Assembly (NCBI RefSeq): GCF_001941845.1
Contig: NZ_CP018870.1
Coordinates: 186,001-250,000 of the forward strand
Length of the DNA: 64,000 bases
DNA from: Streptomyces sp. TN58
GTDB taxonomy: Bacteria; Actinomycetota; Actinomycetes; Streptomycetales; Streptomycetaceae
Direction of reading: 5' to 3'
The position numbers were made by a program, and so were the translations under genes. This document shows positions 49,050 through 63,260 of the stretch, one piece after another. Below the pieces are notes generated by a model that searched no databases, was not told the DNA's origin, and worked only from the letters and a program-made list of their open reading frames with translations. Within the stretch, counting starts at the first letter, position 1. The number at the start of each line of letters is the position of its first letter.

Positions 49050-49110
49050 CTGAGGGCTGTCCCGTCATCCCCCGGGCGCGCGGTGCCGGGTGCTGCGTGA
49101 CGGCCCTCAG
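49050..49110. terminator. Imperfect hairpin between convergent usp and nitroreductase genes
   Basis: CTGAGGG...CCGTCA pairs with TGACGG...CCCTCAG (13 bp with one 5-base bulge and a 30-base loop). It lies directly after the usp stop and overlaps the stop codon of the nitroreductase gene, so it may terminate both transcripts. Confidence 0.42.
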
Positions 49111-50144
49111 TCCCGGATCTCCAGGACGTCGGCGACCGGACGGCGCGGCGTCTCGGGTCCGAGGGGCCCGTATCCCACGCGCAGGACCATCTGTACGTGG
49201 CCCATGGCCTCCAGCGGGTCGCGGGCTGCCCAGCGCAGTTCCGACCATTCGAGGGGCTGGGAGGTCATCGAGGTGGCCAGGCCGTCGGTGGTGGCCTGGA
49301 GGAGGACGCGTTCCAGTGCCTGGCCGGCCCGCAGCCAGTCCGCCCGGGTGTCGTTCGACGTGCCGAGCAGGGCGAGCTGGGGCCGCTTCTCGAACGCGGC
49401 CCAGCCGCGATCCGCCACCCTGTGGTCCCGGTCGAAGTCCCGGACGGGGGCAGTTCCCGCGGAGCTGCGCGGGCCGAACGCGGCGGCGGGAACGCCGTCG
49501 CCGCGGGTGTCGGCCGGGTCCGGTGCGGAGGAGGTCCAGGCGGAGGTCTCCGCCCGGGCCAGAGGGTCGGCGTCCTCGCGGTGTTCCGCGTCGCGGACCA
49601 GCCCGAGCACGGTCTCCAGGTGCCAGTCGCCCGGCAGGGTCAGGCGGCAGCCCTCGCGGCGTGCGGCGCTCCGCAGGCCGTCCCAGAGGGCGTCCGGCAC
49701 CGGCTCGTCGCTGAAGGGGAAGCGGCAGGTGTGCCGCCGCCGCAGGGCCGCGTACAGGACGGCCAGATCGCGGTCCCCGTCGCGGTCCGCGTCGTAGTCC
49801 GCGTCATGGTCCGCGTCATGGCCGTCAGGCGGCCTTTCGAGGGCTGCCGAGGCCAGCAGCCAGGGTTGCGACGCGTCGGGCAGCAGCCGTACGTCTGCTT
49901 GCAGGCCGTACTGTGCGGCGGACACGCGGAGGTTGAACAGGGCCGCGGCGCAACCGAGGTGGAGGGCCCGGTGGTCCGGATCCGTCCGTGTCATGGCCCG
50001 CTCCGGATCCCCGTACAGCTCGATGACGCCGCCGGCCGGTCGGAAGACGAACTTCCAGGGCTGGGCGTTGTGCATGGACGGGGCGGTGACGGCGTCGCCG
50101 ACGAGCCGGGCGGCGGTGTCTGGGTCGAGATGTGCTGGGGCCAT
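49107..50144 (-). CDS. Acg-type FMN-binding nitroreductase-like protein
   Basis: This is a 345-residue protein of the Acg (Rv2032-like) nitroreductase family: VGDAVTAPSMHNAQPWKFVF at the start, YAALRRRHTCRFPFSDEP, and QALERVLLQATTDGLATSMT near the C-terminus. Acg proteins have an incomplete flavin pocket and may store FMN under hypoxia rather than reduce nitro compounds. An odd Asp-rich stretch (DADHDADYDADRDGDRD, about residues 115-131) is encoded by short tandem repeats. GGACGAGTCC surrounds the start. It lies downstream of the CBS-BON gene on the same strand with a 94-base gap. Confidence 0.86.
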   Translation of the reverse strand: MAPAHLDPDTAARLVGDAVTAPSMHNAQPWKFVFRPAGGVIELYGDPERAMTRTDPDHRALHLGCAAALFNLRVSAAQYGLQADVRLLPDASQPWLLASAALERPPDGHDADHDADYDADRDGDRDLAVLYAALRRRHTCRFPFSDEPVPDALWDGLRSAARREGCRLTLPGDWHLETVLGLVRDAEHREDADPLARAETSAWTSSAPDPADTRGDGVPAAAFGPRSSAGTAPVRDFDRDHRVADRGWAAFEKRPQLALLGTSNDTRADWLRAGQALERVLLQATTDGLATSMTSQPLEWSELRWAARDPLEAMGHVQMVLRVGYGPLGPETPRRPVADVLEIRD

Positions 50145-50238
50145 GGGACTCGTCCTGTCTGTGCGGGGCCTCACCTGTGCGCCGTGCGGCGACCGGCGGG
50201 ACGGCGTCGTGCTCGCGGGAGGCCGGCCGACTGCCCGG

Positions 50239-50898
50239 CTACCACGGAATCGCACGGCGGCCGGGGTGGGTGGCGGTGTCGTCGGTCCGGGCGGTGACGT
50301 GGGACACCACGGCGACGACTCCGTCGAGCTGTTCGACCAGGCTGACGAGGGAACGGAGCTGGCTTCGCAGCTCCATGTGCCCGTCCAGGGTGACGATGCC
50401 GTCCACCACATGGACCTCGACGTGGCCCCGGGGTACCCCGAGCACCTCGTCGAGGACCTCGTCGTCCACCCGCCGGCGTATTTCGGAGTCGGGGCGGACG
50501 AACAGGCGCAGCAGGTCCCTGCGGGTGACGATGCCGACGAGCCGGTTCTCCTCGTCCACGACGGGCAGCCGCTCGATGCCCCGGCGTGTCAGGAGCCGTG
50601 CCGCGTCGGCGGCGGTCTCCTCGGCACGGATGGTGACGGCGGGTGCGGACATGACGTCGCGTGCGGTGAGCGGTTCCGTGCTGGTGCTGTCCGCCCTGGC
50701 GGGGCGGGTGGCCTGCAAGGTCCGGGCCAGGAGGTCGGTCTGCGAGACGATGCCCAGCACGCGGTCCTCGTCGTCCAGGACGGGAAGTCCGGAGATGTCG
50801 TACTGGGCGAGGAGCTTGGCGGCATCCTTGAAGGCGGTGCCGGGCGCCACCGAGACGACCTCGTCGGTCATCAGGTCCGCGACGCTGATGTGCTTCAT
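50239..50898 (-). CDS. CBS-pair and BON domain protein
   Basis: This encodes 219 residues. Two CBS domains occupy about 1-130: VADLMTDEVVSVAPGTAFKD with LPVLDDEDRVLGIVSQTDLL, and ARDVMSAPAVTIRAEETAAD with LPVVDEENRLVGIVTRRDLL. A BON domain follows (GHVEVHVVDGIVTLDGHMEL). CBS pairs bind adenine nucleotides and report energy state; BON domains often contact membranes. Genes of this kind are DosR/OsdR-type regulon members, and a DosR-like palindrome lies about 90-100 bases upstream. GGAGGACGGC precedes the ATG. Confidence 0.9.
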   Translation of the reverse strand: MKHISVADLMTDEVVSVAPGTAFKDAAKLLAQYDISGLPVLDDEDRVLGIVSQTDLLARTLQATRPARADSTSTEPLTARDVMSAPAVTIRAEETAADAARLLTRRGIERLPVVDEENRLVGIVTRRDLLRLFVRPDSEIRRRVDDEVLDEVLGVPRGHVEVHVVDGIVTLDGHMELRSQLRSLVSLVEQLDGVVAVVSHVTARTDDTATHPGRRAIPW

Positions 50899-50986
50899 GC
50901 CGTCCTCCCGGTCCGCCGTTCGGTGAAAGTCCCGGTCTGTCGCAGGGCGTGCCCCCACCATCCGTCCGGTGCTGCCCGCCGGGCGA

Positions 50987-51001
50987 GGGCCGAACGGTCC
51001 C
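50987..51001. promoter_or_regulatory. DosR/OsdR-like box between divergent CBS and usp genes
   Basis: On the minus strand the site reads GGGACCGTTCGGCCC, which fits the GGGAC...GGCCC pattern of known DosR sites. It is centred between the CBS-BON gene and the broken usp gene and could serve both. Confidence 0.45.
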
Positions 51002-51089
51002 GAACGTGGCCCGGGCGGCCCTCTCCCCGACGCGCCGCGGGTGCCGGCGTGAGCGGTGTCCCTCATCGGATTCTCGGTTGGGCGGAACC

Positions 51090-51470
51090 GTGGACAGCAC
51101 CTTCCCCACTCCGGACACGAGTCCGGTGGCCGTGGGCGTGGACGGCTCGGACGCGGCCCGGGAGGCCGCCCTGTGGGCGGGCGCGGAGGCCGTGCGCCGC
51201 GAGCGTCCGCTGCGCGTCGTCCACGCGGCGGACACCGAGGGCAGGGCCCTCTACCTGCCGGCGCTGACCGTCGAGCAGGTCTGCGCCGCCGGCCGGAGAC
51301 TGCTGGACGAGACGGCGAAGGACCTGGCGGACGAGTACCCCGGCCTGCGCGTGACCACGGAGCTGAGCCGGGCGGAACGCCGTCACCGCCCTGCGCGGGG
51401 CCGGGGCCCCGCACGGCACGATCGTGGTGTGGGATGGCTCGTCGTGTGCTGCTTCCGGCACCTGCATTGT
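51090..51470 (+). pseudogene. Frameshifted, truncated universal stress protein gene
   Basis: From a GTG at 51090 the frame reads like a Usp domain (PVAVGVDGSDAAREAALWAG, LTVEQVCAAGRRLLDETAKD). At LRVTTELSRA the frame breaks, and the family sequence continues one frame over as AVTALRGAGAPHGTIVV. A single extra A near 51376 would explain the shift. After TIVVWDGSS even that frame loses similarity, so the ATP-binding GSRG...GS segment is missing. It is divergent from the CBS gene. Confidence 0.72.
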
Positions 51471-51497
51471 CTCAGCAGGCGGTGGGCGGCACCCCCC

Positions 51498-51529
51498 GGG
51501 CCGGGCCGCACGGTGGTGCGGCCCGGCCC
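51498..51529. terminator. 14-bp perfect hairpin between convergent genes
   Basis: GGGCCGGGCCGCAC pairs with GTGCGGCCCGGCCC around a GGTG loop. It sits between the broken usp gene and the 3' end of the DUF1152 gene and should stop transcription from both sides. Confidence 0.75.
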
Positions 51530-51540
51530 CGGCGTGCGGT

Positions 51541-52602
51541 TCAGGTGAGCCGGAGCAGCGGGGTCGCGCTGCCGAGGAGCTTCCTGAGGGCCGGGATGTC
51601 GGTCCATGCCAGGCCGAGGGAGCGGGCGGCGTACCGGAGGGTTACGTGGTCCGCGCCGGGGGCCGCCTCGCGCAGCGCCTTCATGGCGACGTCGCGGTCG
51701 GGGAAGGCGGCCGTGCCGGGCGGCGGGTCCTGCCGGGGTGTGCGGGCGTGCTCGGGCGCCAGGCCGTGTATGCCGGTGAGCCGGTGGGAGAGGTCTGCGG
51801 CGTCCTCCAGGGTCTCGGGACGCTCGTCGAGCAGGACGCGCGCGACCGGGTTGTGGCCTACGGCTTCGTGCAGGGGCAGGTGGAACAGCTTCGGTGAGAC
51901 CGCGGTGAGTTCGGCGGTGTGGTTGACCGCGCGTACGCTGCCGCGGGCGCCGTGGACGGCGGCGGCCCACAGGGCCGAGGCCTCCGAGGGGTGCCAGGCC
52001 AGGGCTCGGGCGGCCGCCGATGCAGCGGCCGTTCCGGGGGTGAGGGGGTGGTACCCGGGGAGCCGTGCGAGCAGGGTCGGTTCGTCGATCTCCCCGTCGA
52101 GGCCCGGCCCGGCGACGTGGACGGTGGTGGGGATGCCGGTGAGGTGGCAGGCGGCGAGGGTGAGGGCGTCCCCGAAGGGGCTGCACAGGCCCGGTTCATC
52201 GCCGTGGGTCAGGATGTCGCCGCCGATGTCGACGACGTGGATCCAGCCGCCCGCGGACCGGGCCATGGCGCTGATCTGCGCGGCCAGCGCGGTGAGTCCC
52301 TGGGACGGGTCGAGCAGCAGCAGCAGACGGGCCGGCAGGTCGGCGGCGAGGCCGGGCAGGGTGGATCCGGCGGGCGGCCGGGCTCTGGTGTCGGGGGTGA
52401 AGGCCGGGGCGCCGCCGGCGCCGCGGGCGAGGCGGGTGAAGTGGTGTTCCCCGAGGGGGCCGGGGGGATCGCTGATCTCGGGACGCTCCCACGCGTAGGT
52501 GGCGATCAGTGGCGGGTCCGGGGCCTCGCTGACGGTGCGTGCGGCGATCAGGGTGCCGATGGGATCCCCGCCCCCGCCGGCCGCGACGTACAGGTCGCTC
52601 AC
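51541..52602 (-). CDS. DUF1152 family protein
   Basis: This is a 353-residue soluble protein whose N-terminus LYVAAGGGGDPIGTLIAART and later WIHVVDIGGDILTHGDEPGL match the DUF1152 family (AAGGGGD...IDxGGD pattern), a nucleotide-binding-like fold of unknown activity found in archaea and actinomycetes. It has no signal peptide or membrane segment. The GTG start overlaps the stop of the upstream radical SAM gene by four bases, so both are made together. Its place beside ATP-grasp, exporter and acyltransferase-fold genes suggests a biosynthetic or self-protection role, which is inference. Confidence 0.8.
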   Translation of the reverse strand: MSDLYVAAGGGGDPIGTLIAARTVSEAPDPPLIATYAWERPEISDPPGPLGEHHFTRLARGAGGAPAFTPDTRARPPAGSTLPGLAADLPARLLLLLDPSQGLTALAAQISAMARSAGGWIHVVDIGGDILTHGDEPGLCSPFGDALTLAACHLTGIPTTVHVAGPGLDGEIDEPTLLARLPGYHPLTPGTAAASAAARALAWHPSEASALWAAAVHGARGSVRAVNHTAELTAVSPKLFHLPLHEAVGHNPVARVLLDERPETLEDAADLSHRLTGIHGLAPEHARTPRQDPPPGTAAFPDRDVAMKALREAAPGADHVTLRYAARSLGLAWTDIPALRKLLGSATPLLRLT

Positions 52603-54062
52603 GCCGCTCCCTCGCGCAGGTCGACGCCGGTGATGCGCACGGGGGTGGCCCCCATGTTCCTGCGGGCGCGCGCGTTGGCCGCGTGCAGGTTCTCGTAGTA
52701 CTCGCGGTCCAGGGCCTTGACGGTGTCGGAGTAGAACATCCAGGACAGGACGTCGCGGTACTTGAATCCCTTGGGCGTGAGCTGGACGCGCCGGCCGAGC
52801 CGGTGGAGGAGGCCGTTGGCCTCGGCGGCGTCCAGGACGGGTTCGAAGTCGGCGGCGTGCTTCCGGTAGCCGAAGCGGTCCAGTTCGCCGAGGTCGAGGT
52901 CGAAGCAGTCGAGGACGAGGCGCTTGCGGACGATCTCCTCGGCGGTCAGCTCGATACCGGTGACCGGGACGATCTCGTGACGGCCGGCCTTCCTGATGTA
53001 GTCGGCCACCTCGGCCGTCGAGGGCTTCACGCTGCCGGTCATGTAGTCGAGGACGCTGGTGTAGGAGCGTGCGCCGACGCCGAGGCCCAGCAGCGGCACG
53101 CCGTGGAAGGTGAGCACCTTCTGTACGTAGCCGCCGCGGCCCGGGGTCTTGTAGCGGACGGAGCCCTCCTGGACGTAGCCGTGGTCGAGGAAGACCTGGC
53201 GGGCGTAGTCGTAGCGGTCGTAGAGCTCGGGCTGCCACATGTACTGGTAGGCGCCGGTCTTGGAGAACCACGCGTCCGGCCGCACCGTGAGGAAGTAGGT
53301 GCTGATGGTGGTGGGCTTCAGCGCGGCCAGCTCGTCGACGCTGTGGCGCCAGGTCTCGGGGGTCTGGCCGGCGAAGCCCATGATCAGGTCCGTGGACAGG
53401 TCGGGGAGGCCGAGTTCGTGTGCGGTCCGGATGGCGCGGCGGATGACGTTCTCGTCCTCGCCGCCGCGGCCGGCCTCGCGGATCTCGCGCGGGACGAGGG
53501 ACTGGATGCCGACGTTGGCGCGGGTGAGGCCCATGTCGATGAGGGCCTTGAACTCGTGGGGCGCGTCGGCGATGGAGGACGGTGTGGCCTCCACGGCGAC
53601 CTCCTCCACGGTCGAGCGCCAGTTGGGGTAGACGCGGGCCAGGGTGGTGAAGATCTGCTCGAAGTGGCGGGGTTTGAGGAGGGCAGGGGTCCCGCCTCCG
53701 ATGTAGACGGTACGCAGCCGGCGGGCCTGGATGATCTCGGCGTGGTCCTCGATCTGCGTGCACAGGGCGTCGGTGTAGGCGTCGAAGACGTCCTCGTCGG
53801 TGCTGATGATCGTGTAGAGGTTGCAGAAGCCGCACTTGCGGTCGCAGAAGGGGACGTGGAGGTAGAGGTTGAGTTCGGGGACCTGGTGGTGGGCGAGGTC
53901 CGCGGCCCAGATCTCGGGGATGCTCCACCGGCCCTCCGGGAGGGGGCGGTAGGTGGAGCGGGGCGGGTAGGAGTACTGGTAGGGCGGTATGACGCCCTGG
54001 GCGATCTGGTCGGCGATCTGGTCGGTGAGCCGGTCGGTGAGCTGCTGGCGCGGGCTGGTCAC
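52599..54062 (-). CDS. HemN/HemW-like radical SAM protein
   Basis: This encodes 487 residues with the radical SAM cluster-binding motif CDRKCGFC (CxxxCxxC), preceded by ELNLYLHVPF and followed by VYIGGGTPALLKPRHFEQIF and LSTDLIMGFAGQTPETW, the signature order of coproporphyrinogen oxidase-like HemN/HemW proteins. The C-terminal winged part (RKRLVLDCFDLDLGELDRFG) is also HemN-like. It is not next to any haem gene; HemN-like enzymes in secondary metabolism perform methyl transfer, cyclopropanation or other C-H chemistry. The GTG at 54062, with GGGGAA upstream, is preferred over the long Thr/Arg-rich extension. It is divergent from the ATP-grasp operon. Confidence 0.88.
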   Translation of the reverse strand: MTSPRQQLTDRLTDQIADQIAQGVIPPYQYSYPPRSTYRPLPEGRWSIPEIWAADLAHHQVPELNLYLHVPFCDRKCGFCNLYTIISTDEDVFDAYTDALCTQIEDHAEIIQARRLRTVYIGGGTPALLKPRHFEQIFTTLARVYPNWRSTVEEVAVEATPSSIADAPHEFKALIDMGLTRANVGIQSLVPREIREAGRGGEDENVIRRAIRTAHELGLPDLSTDLIMGFAGQTPETWRHSVDELAALKPTTISTYFLTVRPDAWFSKTGAYQYMWQPELYDRYDYARQVFLDHGYVQEGSVRYKTPGRGGYVQKVLTFHGVPLLGLGVGARSYTSVLDYMTGSVKPSTAEVADYIRKAGRHEIVPVTGIELTAEEIVRKRLVLDCFDLDLGELDRFGYRKHAADFEPVLDAAEANGLLHRLGRRVQLTPKGFKYRDVLSWMFYSDTVKALDREYYENLHAANARARRNMGATPVRITGVDLREGAA

Positions 54063-54321
54063 TGTGCTCGTTCCCCGTTCGGGTCGCGGATGCGGTTTGC
54101 GTGGTGCCGTTGGTGTTGTGCGGTGTGTTGTACGGTTCGCGGTTCGCGTGGCGATCGGACCACGGGACGCTTGTGCGATTCCATGGGCGATGCGCACCAA
54201 ATGCCGCTCTGCTACTGGCGAGTTGCTTGGCTCTTGCTCCAAGTCGGCCTGCTCGGCAGGGAGTTATTTTCGTCTGTCAGGCCGATAGCCGCTGCCCTCC
54301 ACCTGCGGCTTTGCTGGTCGA

Positions 54322-55578
54322 ATGACTATCGGGGCGGGCCTGCGCGGCCCGGGAGTGCTGGTGATCGAGCCGATGGGAAACGCGGGGCGTTTCCTGGTGG
54401 AAGCCGCCGACCGGCTGGGACTGCGGCTGTACGCCGCGACCCACAAGGAGGTCCACGACGCCTATCCGGACCGGCTGCGCTCCGCCCTCGCGGGGGTGTG
54501 CGCGACGGACCTGACGGACACCCCTCGGGCACTGGCGGACATGGAGGCGTTCTGCCGGCGGCACGCCGTGGCGGGTGTCGCGGCCTGCTTCGAGCTCTTC
54601 ACCCCGCTCGCCGCACTGCTGGCCGAACGGGTCGGCCTGCCCGGCAACGACCCGCGGCTCGCCCGGGCGGCCAGGAACAAGATCCTGATGGGTGAGGCCT
54701 TCGCGGCGACCGGTATCCCCGCGCCCCGCTGGGCTGTGGCCCGTGACGCCGCCGAGGCGCGGCGGGTCGCGGAGACGGGCGGGCTGGGGTGGCCCCTGGT
54801 GGTCAAGCCGGCCGAGCAGGGCGGTTCGTGGGGCGTGTCCGTCGTGGAAGGCCCCGGCGACGCACTGGCCCACGCCGTCGCCGCCGCACAGCGCTTCACG
54901 CACGCCCGGCCGCACGGGCTGGAGCTGGACACCACCGCCCTGCTGCAGGAGTACGTGCGCGGGGCGGAGTACTCCTGCGACACGGTGGTCGCGGACGGGG
55001 TCGCCCATCCGCTGCCGGTCGTACGCAAGGACACCACCCGGGGCCGGTACCGCATCGAGACCGGGCACACCTGCCCGGCCGGTCTGGACGACGAGCTGGC
55101 CGGGATCGTGCAGCGCACGGCGGCGCGCGCCGCGCTGGCCGTCGGTGTCCGCAACGGCATCGCGCACACGGAGCTGAAGATCCCCCCGGGGACGCGCACG
55201 CCGTTCGTGATCGAGACCGGGGCCCGGCTGCCCGGGGACAACCTGTGCGAGGTGGTCGAGGCCGCCACGGGCGTCAGCGAGGCCGGAGCCCATCTCCAGG
55301 CCGTGCTGGGGCGGGTGCCCGACACCGCCCCCGCCTTCGCGGGCGCCGCCTCGATCCGCTTCCTGCTCCCGGAGCGCGGCGGGGTGCTGCGCCGGGCGTC
55401 CATCCCCGAAGCCCCCTGCACGCACGGCGAGTTGCACCTGTGGCCCGGCGACGCGGTGCCGGAGCCGGCCGACTCGGCCTGCCGGATCGGCCACGTCGTC
55501 GCCCGCGCGGCGACCGCCGACCGGGCGCGCGAGCTGGCGGCCGGGGTCGTCGCCCGTTCCCTCGTGGAAGTGGGGTGA
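54322..55578 (+). CDS. ATP-grasp ligase (first)
   Basis: This is a 418-residue ATP-grasp enzyme of the carboxylate-amine ligase type. An N-terminal Rossmann-like domain (GVLVIEPMGNAGRFLVEAAD) precedes the ATP-binding part: LGWPLVVKPAEQGGSWGVSV (ATP-grasp Lys and flexible loop), LLQEYVRGAEYSCDTVVADG, and the metal site TPFVIETGARLPGDN. It should activate a carboxylate as acyl-phosphate and couple it to an amine. It is the first gene of a four-gene unit, and its stop overlaps the next GTG. The start ATG has no clear ribosome-binding site and could be leaderless; the GTG at 54355 is another option. The substrates are unknown. Confidence 0.88.
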   Translation: MTIGAGLRGPGVLVIEPMGNAGRFLVEAADRLGLRLYAATHKEVHDAYPDRLRSALAGVCATDLTDTPRALADMEAFCRRHAVAGVAACFELFTPLAALLAERVGLPGNDPRLARAARNKILMGEAFAATGIPAPRWAVARDAAEARRVAETGGLGWPLVVKPAEQGGSWGVSVVEGPGDALAHAVAAAQRFTHARPHGLELDTTALLQEYVRGAEYSCDTVVADGVAHPLPVVRKDTTRGRYRIETGHTCPAGLDDELAGIVQRTAARAALAVGVRNGIAHTELKIPPGTRTPFVIETGARLPGDNLCEVVEAATGVSEAGAHLQAVLGRVPDTAPAFAGAASIRFLLPERGGVLRRASIPEAPCTHGELHLWPGDAVPEPADSACRIGHVVARAATADRARELAAGVVARSLVEVG

Positions 55579-56834
55579 CACCGGTGCGGAAGATCGCGTT
55601 CCTGCGGTCGGTGGGCATCCGGCGCGCCGATCCCCTCATCCAGCAGGCCGTACGCTCCCTCGCCGCCGAGGGAATCGAGGCGGGCCTGTTCCACACGAGC
55701 GGCAGCCCCGGTGACGAGGACTTCCCCGGACACCGGCAGCGGCTCGACCCGGACATCACGCCCCGGCGGCTCGCCGGCGTGGTCGCCGCCTGGGGAGCGG
55801 ACGCGGCGGTGTCGATCTCGCTGCCCTGCGAGAACGCGCTGCGCGACGCCGCCGCCGCGGCGCACCTGGAGGCCTGCGGCATCCCGACGGTCGTCACCCC
55901 GCTCGCGTCGACGATGCTGCTGGTGGACAAGTGGGAGACCAAGCAGCTCTGCCGGCGCGCCGGCCTGGACGTCCCGGACGGCGTACGCGCCGACTGCGGA
56001 CTGCTGGCGGGCCGCGGCCTGCCGGTGCCCGGGTACCGGGACGCGCTGCGGGCGGAGGCCGCGCGGATCGGCTACCCGCTGATGGCGAAGCCGGTCTGGG
56101 ACTCCACGAGCGTGGGCATCCGGACGCTGCGCACCCCGGCGGAACTGGACGCCTGGCTCGCCGGCCCGCCGGAGGCGTCGGCGGTCGTGGAGGAGGTCGT
56201 CGAGGGCGACCTGTGCAGCGTCGACATCGTGGGACGGCCCGGCGCCTACCGGGTCCTCCCCCTGTGCTGGACCGGGCGGGCCGGCGCGGAGCCGGTGTTC
56301 ACCTTCGCCGACCTGCGGTGGTGCGGGCCGCGGCCCGAGGCGGACGCCGCGTTCGCGGACGTGGCCCGCACGCTGGCCGCACTGTGCGGGGAACTCGGCG
56401 TGCACGGGTCCGTCAACGTCGACATGGTCCACACGGGCGGCCGATTCGTGGTCCTGGAGGTCAACCCGCGCGTCGGCGGAGCCACCACCCTGTCGTGCGC
56501 CGCGTCGGACACGAACACCTATGCCACGCTCGCCCGTATGGCGCGCGGCCTCCCGCCGGCGGCCGGTCCGGTACAACGCACCGGCTGGGCCCTTGAGTTC
56601 CTCGTCGAGGAGGGTGTCGGCCCGGCGGCGACGCACGGGCTTCGGAAGATCGCCACGGTGGTCACCGCGCACGAGCTGGTCATCGACGGGGTCTCCCGCG
56701 GCGACATCGTCGTCCTCACCCTCCGCGAGGGCGAGGAGGCCGCCGTGGTGAAGGGCCTGGCGGACCTGCACGCGACGACCGGCTTCCCCGCGGCCGCCCT
56801 CCTGGGCAAGATCACTTCGTTGTTGGGCCGATGA
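55575..56834 (+). CDS. ATP-grasp ligase (second)
   Basis: This is a 419-residue ATP-grasp protein, distinct from its neighbour. It has an N-terminal RKIAFLRSVGIRRADPLIQQ, a linker VVTPLASTMLLVDKWETKQL, ATP-binding IGYPLMAKPVWDSTSVGIRT and VVEEVVEGDLCSVDIVG, and the metal/catalytic segment GRFVVLEVNPRVGGATTLSC. The EVNPRVGG block keeps the Glu and Asn magnesium ligands. The GTG start lies inside the stop of the first ligase gene (GTGA). Two dissimilar ATP-grasp enzymes in one transcript suggest two successive amide bonds or two building blocks. Similar pairs make small peptide antibiotics and metabolites. Confidence 0.88.
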   Translation: MTPVRKIAFLRSVGIRRADPLIQQAVRSLAAEGIEAGLFHTSGSPGDEDFPGHRQRLDPDITPRRLAGVVAAWGADAAVSISLPCENALRDAAAAAHLEACGIPTVVTPLASTMLLVDKWETKQLCRRAGLDVPDGVRADCGLLAGRGLPVPGYRDALRAEAARIGYPLMAKPVWDSTSVGIRTLRTPAELDAWLAGPPEASAVVEEVVEGDLCSVDIVGRPGAYRVLPLCWTGRAGAEPVFTFADLRWCGPRPEADAAFADVARTLAALCGELGVHGSVNVDMVHTGGRFVVLEVNPRVGGATTLSCAASDTNTYATLARMARGLPPAAGPVQRTGWALEFLVEEGVGPAATHGLRKIATVVTAHELVIDGVSRGDIVVLTLREGEEAAVVKGLADLHATTGFPAAALLGKITSLLGR

Positions 56835-58096
56835 GCGCGCTCCCCGAAACCGGCCGGCGTACCGGGGTCGCGGCGCGCCTGGGCGTGCCCGCGCTGCGGG
56901 GCCGCGGCCGGTTCATCACCGGCAACCTGGTCGACTCCGTCGGCAACGGCATGCTCCTGCCGCTGGGGCTGCTGTACTTCACCGACGTGCGGGGCCTGCC
57001 GGTCGCGCAGGTCGGCATGGCGATGACGGCGGGCCAGGCCGCCGCCCTGCCCGTCACCTTCCTCGCGGGCCGCCTGATGGACCGTGTCGGCCCGCGGGCG
57101 GTGGTCGTCGCGGCGAACGTCGTCGCCGCCGTCGGGTTCACGCTGTTCCTGTTCGCGGACCGGCCGTGGCATGTCGCCGCCGTCCACCTCGTGGTGCAGG
57201 CCGGCATCAACATGTACTTCACCGCCCAGCGCACGCTGATCACCCACGTCACCGAACCCGGGGAGCGGCGCGCGTGGTTCGCCTTCACCGGCTCGCTGCG
57301 CAACGTCGGCCTGGCTGCCGGCGCGGCCACCGCGGCCGGTTCCCTGGCGGTCTTCGGGAAGGGCGCGCTGTCGTGGCTGATCGCGGTCGACGCCGCGACC
57401 TACCTGCTGGCCGCCCTCTGTTTCGCGACGCTGAGGACCACCCCGCCCGGGCCCGGGCAGATGCCGCCGGGCGGCCCGGTCGGGCGGACCGATCACACGC
57501 GCCGCTACCTGCTGCTCATCGCCGTGAACCTGCCCTACGTCCTCGCCCAGGCCGCCCTGTCCGTGCTCGTCGCCCTCTACGCCACCCGCGCCCTGGGACT
57601 TCCGGCCTCGGCGGCGAGCGTGATCTTCGTCGTCAACACCGTGATCGTGTCGGGGTGCTCGACGGTGGTCACCGCCCATCTCGCGCCGAAGGCACCGGCT
57701 CGTGCCGTGGCGGCCGGGTACCTCGTGATGGCCGTCGGCATGGCGGCGTTCATGCTGCCCGCGCTGCCGTCCCTCGCCTTCACCGCGTGGGTGGCCCTCC
57801 TCACAGCGATCACCCTGTTCAGCGTGGCCGAGATCCTTCTCGGCCCGGCGTTGAGCGAGCTTTCGGTGAGCCTCACCCCCGGAGCGGCCGGGGGCTTCAC
57901 CCAGGGTCTGTACCAGTTCTCGTGGGCCATCGGCATGGTCGCCGCCCCCGCCCTGTTCACCCGGCTGCTGGAGGCCGGGCCGCTGCTGCCGTGGGGCGCC
58001 GAGGCCGTGGCCTGCCTGCTCGCCATGGCAGCCGCTCCCGCCCTGACGGCATCCGACCGCCACCGCCCCCGCCACCGCCGGAGGAAGCCCCGTTGA
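56831..58096 (+). CDS. MFS transporter
   Basis: This is a 421-residue transporter with about 12 membrane helices. GNLVDSVGNGMLLPLGLLYF begins helix one, and the family-typical loop FLAGRLMDRVGPRAVVVAAN follows helix two. A second set of six helices begins at YLLLIAVNLPYVLAQAALSV. The Met start overlaps the stop of the second ATP-grasp gene (ATGA), and its own stop overlaps the TTG of the next gene. In a biosynthetic operon it is most likely the exporter for the product and may give self-resistance. Confidence 0.9.
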   Translation: MSALPETGRRTGVAARLGVPALRGRGRFITGNLVDSVGNGMLLPLGLLYFTDVRGLPVAQVGMAMTAGQAAALPVTFLAGRLMDRVGPRAVVVAANVVAAVGFTLFLFADRPWHVAAVHLVVQAGINMYFTAQRTLITHVTEPGERRAWFAFTGSLRNVGLAAGAATAAGSLAVFGKGALSWLIAVDAATYLLAALCFATLRTTPPGPGQMPPGGPVGRTDHTRRYLLLIAVNLPYVLAQAALSVLVALYATRALGLPASAASVIFVVNTVIVSGCSTVVTAHLAPKAPARAVAAGYLVMAVGMAAFMLPALPSLAFTAWVALLTAITLFSVAEILLGPALSELSVSLTPGAAGGFTQGLYQFSWAIGMVAAPALFTRLLEAGPLLPWGAEAVACLLAMAAAPALTASDRHRPRHRRRKPR

Positions 58097-59118
58097 TCAC
58101 TACGCTTGTCGAGTCCGTCCACGCCGTCCCGGCCGCCGAGTGGGAGCGGCTCGCCGCCCCGGCCGGCCTGTACCTGTCGCACCGGTGGCTCGCCGGGGAG
58201 GAGGGGGACCCGACCGCCGACGCCTCGTACGCCCTCGTCCGCGACGACGACGGCACGCTGCTCGCCGCGACACCGCTCTACCTGGTGCACGACGAGCCGA
58301 ACGACGCCTACCGGCCAGCCGGCCTGCTGCCCGCGGGGCTGCGGCCGCGTGTGATCGCGGGGGCTCGGCGCGGCTACCACAGCAGTCCGCTGACCGCCCC
58401 CGCCCTGGACCGCGTACGGCGCGACGCCTGCCTCGCCCTGCTGCGGGACGCGGCCCGCGCGCTGGCCGACCGCAACGGCACCACGCACTGGTGGCCGTAC
58501 CTCACCGCCGAGGCCGCCGCCCGGCTCGCCCCCCTCTATCCCGGGGACCCGGTCCGCCTGGAGGACGACGCCGTCATCCCGCTGCCGGGCATCGACTTCG
58601 GGGCGTACGTCGCCTCCCTGCCGTCACGGCGCCGCGTCGGCGTGCGCCGCGAGCGGCGGGAGTTCGCCGCCGCCGGACTCGACGTACGGCACCTGGCGCT
58701 CGCGGACTGCGCCGAGGAGGCCGGGGTCCTGCTCTCCGGGCACCAACGGGATCACGGCCACGACCGCGACGGCGTCGACGCGATGACCGGCCTGCTCCGG
58801 CGCCAGGCGGCGTCGATGGGCGGCGCGGCCCGGGTGGTGGCGGCGTACGAGGGGCGGCGGATGGCGGGCTTCTGCCTGTACTACCACTACGCGGCCACGA
58901 CGTGGATCCGCGCGGTCGCTGTCGACCGCACCCACCCGGCGCCCCACCTGTACTTCAACCTCATGTACTACCTGCCCGTCCAGGACGCCTACGCCCACGG
59001 CACGAGGGCTCTGCACGCGGGCATGACGACGATCGAGGCGAAACGCCGCCGCGGGGCGGAGGTGTCGGGCCTGTACGCCCTGGCCGACCGCCTCCCCGGT
59101 CCTGGGTCGGGGCTCTAG
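58093..59118 (+). CDS. GNAT-fold protein (peptidogalycan-biosynthesis/FemAB-like)
   Basis: This encodes 341 residues resembling the GNAT-fold group that includes FemAB-like and peptidogalycan biosynthesis proteins: LYLSHRWLAGEEGDPTADAS at the start, PSRRRVGVRRERREFAAAGL in the middle, and AGFCLYYHYAATTWIRAVAV then LYFNLMYYLPVQDAYAHGTR at the end. These transfer amino acids or acyl groups, often from aminoacyl-tRNA or acyl-CoA. The start is TTG, chosen because GGAGGAAG lies five bases upstream and the TTGA overlap repeats the coupling seen at the other junctions. It is the last gene of the unit, followed by a hairpin. Confidence 0.76.
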   Translation: MITTLVESVHAVPAAEWERLAAPAGLYLSHRWLAGEEGDPTADASYALVRDDDGTLLAATPLYLVHDEPNDAYRPAGLLPAGLRPRVIAGARRGYHSSPLTAPALDRVRRDACLALLRDAARALADRNGTTHWWPYLTAEAAARLAPLYPGDPVRLEDDAVIPLPGIDFGAYVASLPSRRRVGVRRERREFAAAGLDVRHLALADCAEEAGVLLSGHQRDHGHDRDGVDAMTGLLRRQAASMGGAARVVAAYEGRRMAGFCLYYHYAATTWIRAVAVDRTHPAPHLYFNLMYYLPVQDAYAHGTRALHAGMTTIEAKRRRGAEVSGLYALADRLPGPGSGL

Positions 59119-59137
59119 GGCGTCGGACACTCCCCAA

Positions 59138-59155
59138 GGGCCTGTGGACAGGCCC
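59138..59155. terminator. Hairpin closing the ATP-grasp operon
   Basis: GGGCCTGT pairs with ACAGGCCC around a GG loop, between the ends of the GNAT-fold gene and the convergent MscS gene. It is short but perfect and can serve both. Confidence 0.62.
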
Positions 59156-59165
59156 GGGGCCTGGG

Positions 59166-60275
59166 CTACCGGTCGCTGTCCGTGAGGATCGAGGGGGACG
59201 GCCCGCGCTGGTGGGGGACGGCGGCGGGTGGAGGTGGTGCCGGGGCGTCGCCCTGGCGGAGGGCGATGGTGTGGGTCGGCGCCGGGATCGAGATGCCCTC
59301 CGCCCGGAAGCGCCGGTGCAGGCGCTTGATGAACTCGTGCTTGATCCGGTACTGGTCGCTGAACTCCCCGACGCCCAGGATCACGGTGAAGTTGATGCGG
59401 GAGTCCGCGAACGTGTGGAAGCGGACGGCGCCTTCGTGGTCGGGGACCGCGCCGTTGATGTCGGCCATCACGCCGTCGACGACCTCCAGGGTCACCCGCT
59501 CGACGTGCTCCAGGTCGCTCTCGTAGCCCACGCCCACCTGGACCAGGATCGAGAACTGCTGTTCCGGCTGGGTGTAGTTGGTCATGTTGGTGCGCGCGAG
59601 GCGGGCGTTCGGGATGATGACGAGGTTGTTGGACAGGTTGCGCACCACGGTGTTGCGCCAGTTGATGTCGACGACGTAGCCCTCCTCGCCGCTCGTGAGC
59701 CGGATGTAGTCCCCGGGCTGCACGGTCTTCGAGGCGAGGATGTGCACTCCGGCGAAGAGGTTGGCGAGGGTGTCCTGGAGTGCGAGCGCGACCGCCAGAC
59801 CGCCCACGCCGAGGGCGGTGACCAGCGGTGCGATGGACACTCCGAGGGTCTCCAGGGCGACGAGTACGCCCATCACGAGGACCACGATCCGCGTGATGTT
59901 GACGAAGATGGACGCCGACGCCGCCACCCCGGTCCGCGTGCCCGCCACGGACTGGACGAGGCCCGCGACGACGCGCGCCGTGCTGAGCGTGGCGATGAGG
60001 ATGAGCAGCGCGGTCAGGGACTGGTTCACGAAGCCCGAGACGCGCGCGGTGAGCGGCAGGGTCGTCGCAGCCACCGCGGCGCCCGCGATCAGCGCGGCGC
60101 CGGGGGCGATGGTGCGCAGTGCGTCGACGATGATGTCGTCGCCGCGCCAGCGGGTCCGTGCGGCGTGCCGCCCCAGCCACCGCAGCAGGGCGCGCAGCAG
60201 CAGTCCGGCTGCTGCGCCCGCCGCCAGGGCGATACCCGCGGCGAGCCAGTCGTGCAGGACGAGGTCCCGGTTCAA
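59166..60275 (-). CDS. MscS-family mechanosensitive channel
   Basis: This is a 369-residue small-conductance mechanosensitive channel. Four or five N-terminal hydrophobic helices are followed by the pore helix and MscS beta domain signature: GVGGLAVALALQDTLANLFA, then GVHILASKTVQPGDYIRLTS and NLVIIPNARLARTNMTNYTQ. The C-terminal domain ends in a Pro-rich tail. It protects against hypo-osmotic shock by releasing solutes. The start is TTG with GAGGGGGG just upstream. It is convergent with the ATP-grasp operon and upstream of nothing on its own strand, so it is probably monocistronic. Confidence 0.9.
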   Translation of the reverse strand: MNRDLVLHDWLAAGIALAAGAAAGLLLRALLRWLGRHAARTRWRGDDIIVDALRTIAPGAALIAGAAVAATTLPLTARVSGFVNQSLTALLILIATLSTARVVAGLVQSVAGTRTGVAASASIFVNITRIVVLVMGVLVALETLGVSIAPLVTALGVGGLAVALALQDTLANLFAGVHILASKTVQPGDYIRLTSGEEGYVVDINWRNTVVRNLSNNLVIIPNARLARTNMTNYTQPEQQFSILVQVGVGYESDLEHVERVTLEVVDGVMADINGAVPDHEGAVRFHTFADSRINFTVILGVGEFSDQYRIKHEFIKRLHRRFRAEGISIPAPTHTIALRQGDAPAPPPPAAVPHQRGPSPSILTDSDR

Positions 60276-60372
60276 CGGCCCCCCTCGGCTGCGCGGCGTC
60301 GGCCCGTGGGCGCGGATGAGGCGGCGGGCGTCGCCGTCCGCCGTATGTGGTGTGTCGTCACCTTTTTACCTG

Positions 60373-61788
60373 TCAGTTCGTGTTGCTGGAGGCCGCGTTC
60401 GGGCGTGTGTACGCAACCGGGGCGGGCTGCCATCCTGCCGCACAGCGCGGGGACGCATCGCAGCCGGGCACCCCCTGGTGCCGGACGGCGGCGTGTTCGA
60501 CGACCGCGCGGACCTGCGCGGTGATCGCGCTCTCGTTGTGTTCGAACTCGGGCCCGGTCAGCTGCTGCGGGTCGGCCGGCAGGCCGGTGAGCACCGGTGT
60601 GTGGAGGTGGCCGCCGGGCAGGTGCGGGGCGAGTTCGGCGCGCAGCCGGTTGGAGCGGTAGGCGACCTCGTTGGACAGGTAGCCGCCCCCGCCTCCCGCC
60701 ACGGCGCGCGAGCCCGGCGTCGGGCCGTCGGTCCGGTCGACGGGAGCCGTGCCGCCGGCCGGGATCTCGGTGACGTCGCTGTTGAGGAGGACCGGGTACG
60801 GGCTTTGCACGGCGGCGGTCACCGCGTCGGCGGGCAGCGTGGTGCGGATGAACTCCGGTCCCGGGCCGAGGCCGGGGGCCGTCACCGGGTGCTCGCGGGT
60901 GCCGCCGGAGAGTGCGCGCGCGTTGTCGGGGTAGGGGTCGGCGGACCGCGCCCGGCCGGCCCAGTCCTCCAGGGTGAAGATGCCGGGGTAGCCCTGGCTG
61001 ACGGTGGTGATGACGTCGGCCGCGGCGGGTCCTGCGGCGAGGTGCGGGGCGAACGCCCGCTCGACCATGCCCGCGTCGAAGTCGGCGTACCGGACGGGGA
61101 GGACGACGGCGCGGATCTCGGCGGGGCTGCCGTCGGCGAGGGTCACGCGGCGGCCGTTGAGCTGGAGGGCGGCCGATCCGGACGGGTTGGCGCGGCGTAT
61201 CTCGGCATCCAGCCCGAAGGGGTCGAACCCGCTGATGAAGATCCTCCGTACGCCCGGTGCCGTCCGGAAGGCGTTGCCGGTGAGTCCGCGGGAGGCGTCC
61301 TCGAAACGGGCGCGGAGCGCCGCCCGGTCGACGGTGAACCGCGGCTGCCAGCGCGCGAGGTCGGCGGTCATGGCGAGCCGCGCCCAGTACAGCGGCCGGT
61401 CGTCGCCGGGGGCGAGGTCTCCGCCGGGGCGTTGCCCCTGGGCACGCCGTACGGAGGCCTGCCAGAGGCCCTCGCCCCAGGCGTCGAGGAGCCGTCCGGC
61501 CTCGGCGGGCCCGCGTGTGGTGCACAGGGCGGCGGGGAGCCGGCGTACGAAGTCCCCGAGTCCGCCCCGCTCGACGAGGGCGGTGGTACGGGCGTCCGCG
61601 AGCCGGGACTGTTCGGGGTCGAGCGGCGCCGGCGCCGGGGGGCGGCAGCCGGAGGCGCCGTCGGCGGAGTGGGCCGGGGCGGAGTGGGCCGGGGCGGCGA
61701 CCGCCACGGGGAGGACGGTGGCGAGGAGGGCGGCGGCTGATGCCGCACGGCGTAAGACCATCATGCGAGGCGTCATGCGATGTGACAT
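60373..61788 (-). CDS. Secreted pyroglutamyl-peptidase (C15)-like protein, catalytic Cys replaced
   Basis: This is a precursor of about 471 residues with a signal peptide (MMVLRRAASAAALLATVLPV, cleavage near APA). The C15-like part begins at IFISGFDPFGLDAEIRRANP, the GFxPFG...NPS hallmark, and continues through VISQ-like ITTVSQGYPGIFTLEDWA and YPDN. The catalytic Cys of C15 enzymes lies in a YxCN segment; here it reads GGYLSNEVAYRS, a Ser. The His region may be GGHLHTPVLTG. A long N-terminal region (about 170 residues) before the fold is extra compared with the usual 215-residue enzymes. It may be inactive, use Ser, or bind rather than cut. The start could also be 61776. Confidence 0.8.
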   Translation of the reverse strand: MSHRMTPRMMVLRRAASAAALLATVLPVAVAAPAHSAPAHSADGASGCRPPAPAPLDPEQSRLADARTTALVERGGLGDFVRRLPAALCTTRGPAEAGRLLDAWGEGLWQASVRRAQGQRPGGDLAPGDDRPLYWARLAMTADLARWQPRFTVDRAALRARFEDASRGLTGNAFRTAPGVRRIFISGFDPFGLDAEIRRANPSGSAALQLNGRRVTLADGSPAEIRAVVLPVRYADFDAGMVERAFAPHLAAGPAAADVITTVSQGYPGIFTLEDWAGRARSADPYPDNARALSGGTREHPVTAPGLGPGPEFIRTTLPADAVTAAVQSPYPVLLNSDVTEIPAGGTAPVDRTDGPTPGSRAVAGGGGGYLSNEVAYRSNRLRAELAPHLPGGHLHTPVLTGLPADPQQLTGPEFEHNESAITAQVRAVVEHAAVRHQGVPGCDASPRCAAGWQPAPVAYTRPNAASSNTN

Positions 61789-61960: not shown

Positions 61961-62036
61961 GCAAGGCCGTAGCGCAGAGGTCGTCGCGCCCACGCATCGA
62001 GCTGGAGGACGTCGGTTCGAATCCGACCGGTCTTGC
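61961..62036 (+). ncRNA. tRNA-like RNA with degenerate anticodon arm
   Basis: The sequence folds as an almost complete tRNA. Acceptor AAGGCCG (61963-61969) pairs with CGGTCTT (62028-62034), extended by GC/GC outside. T8-A9 is followed by D stem GCGC/GCGC with loop AGAGGTCGTC, and the T arm is GTCGG-TTCGAAT-CCGAC. The 17 bases where the anticodon arm should be (CACGC, ATCGAGC, TGGAG) do not form a proper 5-bp stem with a normal T-N3-A loop, so no anticodon can be assigned, and CCA is not encoded. A good extended -10 (TGTGGGTATGAT) lies just upstream. It may be a decayed tRNA or a functional tRNA-like RNA. Confidence 0.6.
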
Positions 62037-62120
62037 GTATCCTTCCGCAGTTCTGCAGTACTCGTCTTCTTCAAGTCGTGATGGACGCCGGGCACCGGCG
62101 AAGAAACCGGTGGAGTGGTG

Positions 62121-63260
62121 ATGACACAGCCGACACCCGTACGGTGCCCCGCGATCGAGCACCCCGACCTGCCGCCGGCCGACCCGGCCGGCCTCGACCC
62201 GCTGCTCGCCCGGCTCGCCGCGGACCGCCCCGTCGAGGTTGACGAGACCTTCCCGCTCGGCACCCTGCGCACCGACGGCCGCGTCGACCTCTGCAAGCAG
62301 GGCCTCGGCCCGGTCGGGGCCGCCCGGCTGCTCCCGGCCGCGGCCGCGTCCCCGCACGCCACCCACCTGCTGCTCGGCACGAACGCCATCGGCGACACGG
62401 GCGCCGCCACCCTGGCCGACGCCCTGACCGCCGACGGCCACGGCCTCCACACCCTCTACCTCGGCTGCAACCGGATCGGACCGGCCGGGGTGGGCTCCCT
62501 GACCGGTGTCCTCGCCGAGGACACCACCGTCCGGGCCCTCTGGCTCAAGCGCAACCCCCTCCACGCGGACGGCGCCCGCACGCTCGCCGCGCTGCTGCGC
62601 CGCAACACCGGCCTGCGCACCCTCGACCTCGTCAACACGGGGATCGGCGCCGAGGGCGTACGCCTCCTGCTCGACGCCCTCGTGGAGCGCGAGCAGCCCC
62701 TGGAACGGCTCTTCCTCGGCGGCAACGGCCTCGGCCCCGACGCCGCGCCGCTGCTCTGCGACCTGATCCGGCTGGCCGGGGTGCGCGAGCTGTACGTACC
62801 GGCCAACCACCTCGGCGACGAAGGCGCCGCGGCCCTCGCCACCGCCGCGGCCGACTCCCCGCACCCGGTCCGCCTCGGGCTCGGCGGCAACGGCATCGGC
62901 GCCGCCGGGGCCCGTGCCCTGGCCGCCTCCCTCGGCGGCATCGAAGCGCTCGACCTCGGCCGGACCCTGTCCGAGCGCAGCCTCGGCGCCCCCGGCAACC
63001 ACCCCGGCGACGAAGGGGCCTACGCCCTGGCCGCCGCCCTTCCCGGCAGCCCCCTGCGCCGGCTGGAGTTGCGCCACACCGGCCTGACCGGTCGCGGCGC
63101 CAAGAACCTGCTCGCCGCGGTGCCCGACGACACGCCCCTGGAGTACGTCGGCCTGGGCCCCGGCCTCCCCCGCCGCGTGAAGCGCTCCTTCACCGAACGG
63201 CTCCGCCCCGCCCGGGCCGCCCACCCGGACGTACGCGCCATCGGCAGCGTGTACCGGTGA
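62121..63260 (+). CDS. Leucine-rich repeat (ribonuclease-inhibitor-like) protein
   Basis: This is a 379-residue cytoplasmic protein built of about nine RNI-type leucine-rich repeats: LLLGTNAIGDTGAATLADAL, LYLGCNRIGPAGVGSLTGVL, LDLVNTGIGAEGVRLLLDAL, LFLGGNGLGPDAAPLLCDLI, LYVPANHLGDEGAAALATAA and LGLGGNGIGAAGARALAASL. Each has the LxLxxNxIGxxGAxxLAxAL pattern. Such repeats bind proteins; no catalytic domain is attached. The ATG at 62121 is preferred, with GGTGGAG upstream, over the two GTGs just before. Its stop overlaps the GTG of the next gene by four bases, so that product is its likely partner. Confidence 0.86.
   Translation: MTQPTPVRCPAIEHPDLPPADPAGLDPLLARLAADRPVEVDETFPLGTLRTDGRVDLCKQGLGPVGAARLLPAAAASPHATHLLLGTNAIGDTGAATLADALTADGHGLHTLYLGCNRIGPAGVGSLTGVLAEDTTVRALWLKRNPLHADGARTLAALLRRNTGLRTLDLVNTGIGAEGVRLLLDALVEREQPLERLFLGGNGLGPDAAPLLCDLIRLAGVRELYVPANHLGDEGAAALATAAADSPHPVRLGLGGNGIGAAGARALAASLGGIEALDLGRTLSERSLGAPGNHPGDEGAYALAAALPGSPLRRLELRHTGLTGRGAKNLLAAVPDDTPLEYVGLGPGLPRRVKRSFTERLRPARAAHPDVRAIGSVYR

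Follow-up and report, generated by a model that had tools for sequence, protein, structure and literature searches.

Several described systems share parts with the locus studied here. As the excerpted accounts present them, the phosphonoalamide cluster places two distinct ATP-grasp ligases (PnaC and PnaB) and transporters around an unusual amino acid, and the ligases build tripeptides around it (PMC11867202); a beta-lactone peptide is a further precedent for ATP-grasp assembly, on which we do not draw further (PMC11427300). Among HemN-like radical S-adenosylmethionine (SAM) enzymes, the C10P/C10Q cyclopropanase consists of a radical SAM enzyme that needs a partner protein (PMC6050322), and the class C methylase NocN binds two SAMs through contacts with Tyr34, Tyr96, Arg153, Arg171, Asp196, and Ser225 (PMC12871812). 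Here, we describe a six-gene locus (genes A to F) of Streptomyces sp. TN58, located in a window of 64,000 nucleotides (nt) that spans 186 to 250 kb of the 7.59-Mb single-contig genome. The genes encode a DUF1152 protein (A), a HemN-like radical SAM enzyme (B), two ATP-grasp ligases (C and D), a major facilitator superfamily (MFS) transporter (E), and a FemAB-like protein (F). None of the six is a nonribosomal peptide synthetase (NRPS) or polyketide synthase gene, and the locus is probably a self-contained cluster for a small exported peptide that is made without an NRPS. The evidence supports a discrete pathway to an exported small peptide, in which a radical-made building block would be combined with amide formation by enzymes of three kinds.

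The six genes stay together in Streptomyces

A six-frame search of 392 Streptomyces genomes with B as the query (E ≤ 1e-60) returned 22 places in 21 genomes, including 20 places in 20 genomes (∼5%, about one in twenty) at 69 to 100% identity. Up to 20 kb was fetched around 18 of these 20; the other two were the window itself and genome G042, represented only by L003, a locus of 4.5 kb that covers A, B, and C and has the same identities as L024. The 22 other loci examined comprise these 18, L024 (S. virginiae NRRL ISP-5094), L025 (Streptomyces sp. NRRL F-2664), and two loci from a search of the class (L088 and L089); a search of genome contigs for related loci with A gave 2 loci. All six genes were present together in 20 of the 22. 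The contig of L031 breaks off after the first 20 residues of F, and that of L043, 4.3 kb long, carries B, D, and part of an oxygenase gene that belongs to a variant clade. Beyond the six genes, the commonest neighbor families reach only 4 of 20 loci (L024 to L043), these being the left neighbor of L032 to L035 and the oxygenase of the variant clade, and the boundaries of the cluster are therefore sharp.

In the class sample (394 genomes from 137 genera), the same threshold found B in five genomes, all of them Streptomyces, so that the cluster does not look like primary metabolism. Among the best 120 of 158 relatives of C, those with a named host came from Streptomyces, apart from one Kitasatospora protein at 44% identity, and the named hosts of the 84 relatives of F were likewise Streptomyces; the best 120 of 309 relatives of A included a few other genera at 39 to 41% identity. 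One relative of C and one of F are encoded on a plasmid of Streptomyces sp. CA-294286. A plasmid search with B matched 13 records, every one at <60% identity, and the cluster was absent from the two annotated plasmid loci that were opened; a Nonomuraea record carries no annotation at the matching place. In a search for an empty site with the flanks of the cluster (positions 49107 to 51420 and 59119 to 61300) in 41 genomes (its own and 40 relatives), the best matches to the two flanks in other genomes lay apart, among the places listed. A sequence-only reading of this DNA had proposed a discrete biosynthetic cluster, to be abandoned if the genes did not co-occur elsewhere or if the locus proved to be a known characterized cluster or a primary-metabolism unit; the proposal is supported, the six genes holding together amid varying neighbors.

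The proteins also change together. Over 21 complete loci, the distances between loci are correlated for each of the 15 pairs of proteins (r = 0.86 to 0.98; 999 permutations, P = 0.001 each). Invariant residues in these loci number 66 of 353 in A, 262 of 487 in B, 103 of 418 in C, 94 of 419 in D, 33 of 421 in E, and 90 of 341 in F. B is thus strikingly conserved, and the count for E is lowered because E of L089 is split between two frames and the gene caller took only part of it. A divergent clade (L040 to L042) retains all six genes with C moved beside A and B, and adds a second MFS gene, a gene for a protein of 448 to 502 residues (no Pfam or NCBIfam match in the single copy scanned), and one for a 2-oxoglutarate-Fe oxygenase of the amino acid hydroxylase type (PF10014; 203 bits), which weakly resembles L-isoleucine dioxygenase (29 bits, with a cutoff of 350). 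This oxygenase-bearing variant points to amino acid building blocks. The six genes belong together, diverge as a unit, and keep the residues expected of working enzymes.

Predicted amide-forming enzymes and exporter

C (54322 to 55578, plus strand; 418 amino acids) is an ATP-grasp enzyme of the L-amino acid ligase type, with the domains ATPgrasp_N (PF18130; 46.5 bits), ATP-grasp_4 (PF13535; 51.5 bits), and LAL_C2 (PF18603; 35.8 bits), all above their cutoffs. In the PDB it matches the L-amino acid ligase BL00235 (3vot; E = 9e-21, residues 24 to 328 of C) and BacD (E = 9e-13). Its invariant residues include E284 and E298; the matching glutamates bind magnesium in BacD. D (start at 55584 or, less likely, at 55575, end at 56834, plus strand; about 416 to 419 amino acids) is a second ATP-grasp ligase and matches ATP-grasp_3 (PF02655; 41 bits) and, weakly, D-Ala-D-Ala ligases in the PDB (best E = 6e-8). 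K172, E295, and N297 of D are invariant, the latter two presumably being the metal pair of the ATP-grasp fold.

F (58093 to 59118, plus strand; 341 amino acids, TTG start) has a single Pfam match at E ≤ 0.01, FemAB_like (PF04339; 48 bits); the Pfam FemAB family (PF02388) did not match at that threshold, and a sequence search of the PDB gave no match. In a fold comparison, F showed the tandem GCN5-related N-acetyltransferase (GNAT) fold of FemX, which was the single best match, and the small-molecule synthases Sbb17 and Sba18 tied with FemX in Z score (within about 1) at a lower root mean square deviation; sequence identity to all of these is only 11 to 16%. F is best read as a predicted aminoacyl-tRNA-dependent peptide synthase, a refinement by fold of the GNAT/FemAB-like assignment of the sequence-only reading. 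E (56831 to 58096, plus strand; 421 amino acids) is an MFS transporter (MFS_1; 93.6 bits). Judging from these families and folds, C and D would form amide bonds at the expense of ATP, F would append one more residue, taken from a charged tRNA, in the manner of streptothricin-type and FemX-type enzymes, and E would export the product.

The same proteins could be read as a unit for cell envelope (peptidoglycan) modification or self-protection, in which D would act like a D-Ala-D-Ala ligase, F would act like FemX on a cell wall precursor, and the remaining proteins would supply or export an altered building block. The PDB search with D gave five relatives at E < 0.001, every one a D-Ala-D-Ala ligase, FemX leads the fold matches of F, and many relatives of F are named "peptidogalycan biosysnthesis protein" by NCBI. 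D, however, lies far below the cutoffs of the D-Ala-D-Ala ligase families (38.5 bits against 243 for PRK01372.1 and 32.9 against 245.65 for TIGR01205), C is of a type that joins free amino acids, and F fits Sbb17 and Sba18 equally well by Z score and better by deviation. Such a unit would not be expected to include a radical SAM enzyme or an MFS exporter, and occurrence in about one in twenty of the sampled genus suits an accessory metabolite no less well. We therefore regard an envelope function as unlikely.

A smaller chance still is given to a system with an encoded precursor as the substrate of the ATP-grasp enzymes and F, as in ribosomally synthesized and posttranslationally modified peptide (RiPP) or graspetide-like pathways, or in peptide tagging. 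ATP-grasp and radical SAM genes are both known from RiPP clusters, but a Pfam scan of the six proteins showed neither RiPP recognition nor protease domains, and C belongs to a family of free-amino-acid ligases. There is also little room for a precursor gene: the gap between B and C shrinks to about 80 to 140 bp in L036, according to which start of B is taken, and outside L040 to L042 most gaps within the units measure <60 bp, although no search aimed at precursors was made, including beyond the six genes.

DUF1152 and its radical SAM partners

A (52602 to 51541, minus strand; 353 amino acids) is a DUF1152 protein (PF06626; 172 bits). Its predicted structure (AlphaFold2) has a mean predicted local distance difference test score of 93 and a predicted template modeling score of 0.92, and its invariant residues include G9 to G12, D13, D125, G127, G128, D129, W203, H204, P205, and E207. 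A weak lead connects DUF1152 with the LmbE deacetylases. The zinc motif of LmbE/PIG-L de-N-acetylases is AHPDDE; this motif is not found in DUF1152, where AAGGGGD follows the first strand in 40 of 40 aligned sequences.

The Pfam DUF1152 model matches in 183 of the 392 Streptomyces genomes. At 14 loci other than the cluster (L083 to L085 and L100 to L110), DUF1152 adjoins, in divergent orientation, a radical SAM gene of the type of the NCBIfam family STM4012, and in 9 of these an EamA transporter lies on the far side of the radical SAM gene; the contigs of L102 and L105 end there. Family scans in this group covered three radical SAM proteins and one EamA protein. In a tree of radical SAM proteins, the DUF1152-paired STM4012-type enzymes form a separate clade (support, 100/100) grouped with canonical STM4012 proteins. 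At the 10 canonical STM4012 loci themselves (L090 to L099, ∼1.5-kb flanks), no DUF1152 match was found. In Streptomyces, then, two distinct HemN-like subfamilies have DUF1152 as a partner, which suggests that A and B act together. A radical SAM neighbor was seen in 14 of the 26 non-cluster DUF1152 loci fetched with flanks (L078 to L087 and L100 to L115), a biased rate because 11 of the 14 were fetched from genomes matching both families.

Several of these arrangements deserve description in their own right. The loci L083, L085, L101, L103, L104, L106, L108, L109, and L110 carry a three-gene unit of DUF1152, STM4012-type radical SAM, and EamA genes without ligases. At L084, L100, and L103, the DUF1152-radical SAM pair adjoins genes for GTP cyclohydrolase I, SLOG, Nudix-like (by eye), and MFS proteins. 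All five of the top-scoring Streptomyces DUF1152 loci that were opened (L078 to L082) have integrative-element surroundings and a GntR gene next to DUF1152; at these and at L114, where the contig end cuts DUF1152, the neighbor is a GntR-UTRA regulator gene in elements with FtsK/SpoIIIE and DUF2637 genes (Pfam scan on L078 only). In the DUF1152 tree, the row of L115 is of odd composition.

The sequence-only reading named no characterized cluster with DUF1152 in such company. Searches limited to openly licensed papers gave no description of the cluster and no paper with DUF1152, with STM4012, or with a HemN-like and an ATP-grasp enzyme together. DUF1152 is not restricted to the company of these six genes, being also paired with the other HemN-like subfamily.

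That second pairing, which exists without ligases, might suggest that the locus consists of two separate halves, with A and B a stand-alone radical SAM module that merely adjoins an independent peptide cluster of C to F. This is very unlikely, however: among the 22 loci, an ortholog of B lacks the C to F genes only where the contig ends, the divergence of A and B follows that of C, D, E, and F (r = 0.90 to 0.98), and the rearranged L040 to L042 keep all six genes with C on the A/B side.

The HemN-like radical SAM enzyme

B (54062 to 52599, minus strand; 487 amino acids) matches Radical_SAM (80 bits), with HemN_C below the cutoff. Its best NCBIfam model is STM4012 (NF006067), at 260.6 bits, below the cutoff of 380. 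The radical SAM proteins of the cluster form a clade of their own (100/99), far from the STM4012 proteins, in a tree with long branches for L045, L116, L044, L117, and L098. At E ≤ 0.001, a PDB search with B gave two relatives only, HemN (1olt; 5e-23) and NocN (9p2u; 1e-19). All 23 cluster radical SAM proteins have the class C motif CX3CX2C (C73, C77, and C80 of B), and the GGGTP motif (G122 to P126) is invariant in the 21 loci. The six residues of the NocN two-SAM pocket are all present in B and in 23 of 23 cluster proteins; the positions of Tyr96 and Ser225 are A and Y in the 14 DUF1152-paired STM4012-type proteins and in 11 of 14 other radical SAM proteins compared. From its sequence, B would be compatible with dual-SAM, class C-like chemistry, which these residues do not prove. 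A heme- or tetrapyrrole-related housekeeping unit, to which the HemN match and the scores with HutW (135 bits) and HemW (127 bits) might point, can be set aside as extremely improbable, since these scores and that with HemN (121 bits) fall far short of the cutoffs (400, 205, and 325, respectively), the genome has its own HemW (C1:2434076-2435080; 243 bits, above the cutoff), and the cluster is accessory.

Three more distant relatives of B were seen in other surroundings. At L044 (6159 to 14100), a radical SAM protein 49% identical to B, with none of the other cluster genes, has as neighbors an adenylosuccinate synthetase homologue and deoxynucleoside monophosphate kinase-like, HD/YfbR-like phosphohydrolase, and nucleoside phosphorylase-like proteins, a set that resembles genes for nucleotide or DNA base modification. 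At L045 (7961 to 13393), a radical SAM gene (35 to 37% identity), again without other cluster genes, adjoins Nudix, cytidylate kinase-like, and 967-amino-acid metallophosphatase/NTPase genes, possibly a defense or signaling island. Both were set aside. At L116 (5992 to 8309; Rhizobium tropici plasmid b), a gene for an STM4012-family radical SAM protein is directly followed by a class I methyltransferase gene; the two are flanked by cbb3 oxidase/pseudoazurin genes on one side and a carbonic anhydrase gene on the other and are reminiscent of radical SAM-plus-methyltransferase pairs.

One speculative extension, to which we assign a low probability, is that HemN-like radical SAM systems include a new kind, with DUF1152 as an obligatory second component. 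B would add a one-carbon unit derived from SAM to a small amino acid, and DUF1152, in place of the methyltransferase of C10P/C10Q, would resolve the adduct to, for example, a cyclopropyl or C-methyl amino acid; the cluster would mask this product in a peptide by means of three mechanistically different amide-forming enzymes, and the DUF1152/STM4012-like/EamA loci would export it free.

Several observations weigh against the reading as an exported small-peptide pathway. D exceeds the cutoff of no characterized ligase family and is not clearly assignable to a ligase class, the six genes include neither a regulator nor a known resistance gene, and E is split between two frames in L089. A Foldseek search with the model of A gave no significant fold (best E = 0.081), and at DUF1152 loci of other Actinomycetota genera a radical SAM gene lay within ∼1.5 kb in 0 of 11 cases. 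The SAM pocket signature of B is only weakly diagnostic because, by MAFFT alignment, the genome's own HemW and Escherichia coli HemN each carry five of the six residues, the sole difference being Y120 of B (the Tyr96 position), which is F in HemW and H in HemN; a HMMER alignment additionally places N at Arg171 in HemN. R230 of NocN corresponds to T259 in B.

Two notions were given up or reduced: the NocN-type SAM residues were downgraded as a sharp class test after the HemW control, and a universal DUF1152-radical SAM pairing was rejected in view of the loci outside Streptomyces and the GntR-adjacent loci within it.

Layout of the locus

Open reading frame listing and a Pfam scan found the six genes in two divergent units at the coordinates claimed in the sequence-only reading. 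Its account of the gene junctions was borne out for some of them. Gene starts in relatives were chosen by a codon usage gene caller, with which A and B, whose A start is a GTG, overlap by 4 nt in 17 of 21 loci, as claimed for the window; of the three plus-strand 4-nt overlaps, those of D/E (13 of 21) and E/F (16 of 20) recur, whereas the C/D overlap (GTGA) is present in the letters of the window but in 0 of 18 loci. The start of D is unsure because of this and because alignments in relatives begin anywhere from residue 1 to residue 5; GTG 55584 is more probable as the start than GTG 55575, which would create the overlap. TTA codons are absent from all six genes, and the GC content at third codon positions is 0.92 to 0.96.

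The flanking hairpins of the sequence-only reading differ in quality. The left one (51489 to 51537, minus strand; inner 14-bp stem at 51498 to 51529), just 3′ of A, is a strong hairpin and a terminator candidate (the fold of 51485 to 51545 has −47.8 kcal/mol and z = −3.7, equaled by 1 of 200 shuffles). The right one (59138 to 59155, plus strand), just 3′ of F, is a true 7-bp palindrome (GGGCCTG/CAGGCCC) in a stretch that folds no better than shuffles (z = −0.6), a weak terminator candidate. The divergent intergenic region between B and C (54063 to 54321) is a candidate promoter/operator. In an alignment of 17 such regions (the window and 16 loci), it contains blocks such as GATCsGAnCACG, GCACCAAAT, and TTTTCGT..GTCAGGCC.ATAG, each retained by most, not all, of the nearer relatives.

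To the left, the cluster adjoins a Usp-family frame (51090 to 51548, plus strand) whose PF00582 match covers only profile positions 5 to 68 of 141; the remaining similarity lies in another frame and, by eye, ends near the cluster edge, and the frame may be a gene remnant. Farther right, ARAGORN predicts a tRNA-Asp with anticodon ATC (61963 to 62036, plus strand), which scores as tRNA-like in Rfam at only 38 bits and may be a pseudogene; Asp tRNAs with A34 are unusual in bacteria. It adjoins a gene for a leucine-rich-repeat protein (LRR_6; 62115 to 63260, plus strand).

Comparison with known systems

A small, sharply bounded cluster would thus bring together radical chemistry, ATP-dependent amide formation, and predicted tRNA-dependent amide formation, and it offers a functional handle on DUF1152, a family for which a search of openly licensed papers gave no paper. 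Its parts resemble known systems to different degrees. C has the same three domains as BL00235 and BacD. F has the FemX-like tandem GNAT fold in common with FemX, Sbb17, and Sba18, from which it differs by its low identity and its FemAB_like family. STM4012 is the best-scoring family for B, and a distant STM4012 subclass is likewise paired with DUF1152, whereas B itself stays below the family cutoff and in its own clade.

Like the class C methylases NocN and NosN, B is HemN-like and has the two-SAM residues of NocN, but it lacks the counterpart of R230 (PMC12871812). In C10P/C10Q, as excerpted, the partner is a methyltransferase (PMC6050322); Pfam finds none among the six proteins here, and the candidate partner is the DUF1152 protein. 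The substrate of B would be small rather than a thiopeptide or a large aromatic scaffold. The excerpted description of the phosphonoalamide cluster names no radical SAM, DUF1152, or tRNA-dependent enzyme, and the head group there is a C-P amino acid formed by PepM and an aminotransferase (PMC11867202). The phosphonoalamide cluster and the six-gene cluster are alike in their two distinct ATP-grasp ligases and their transporters, set around one unusual amino acid.

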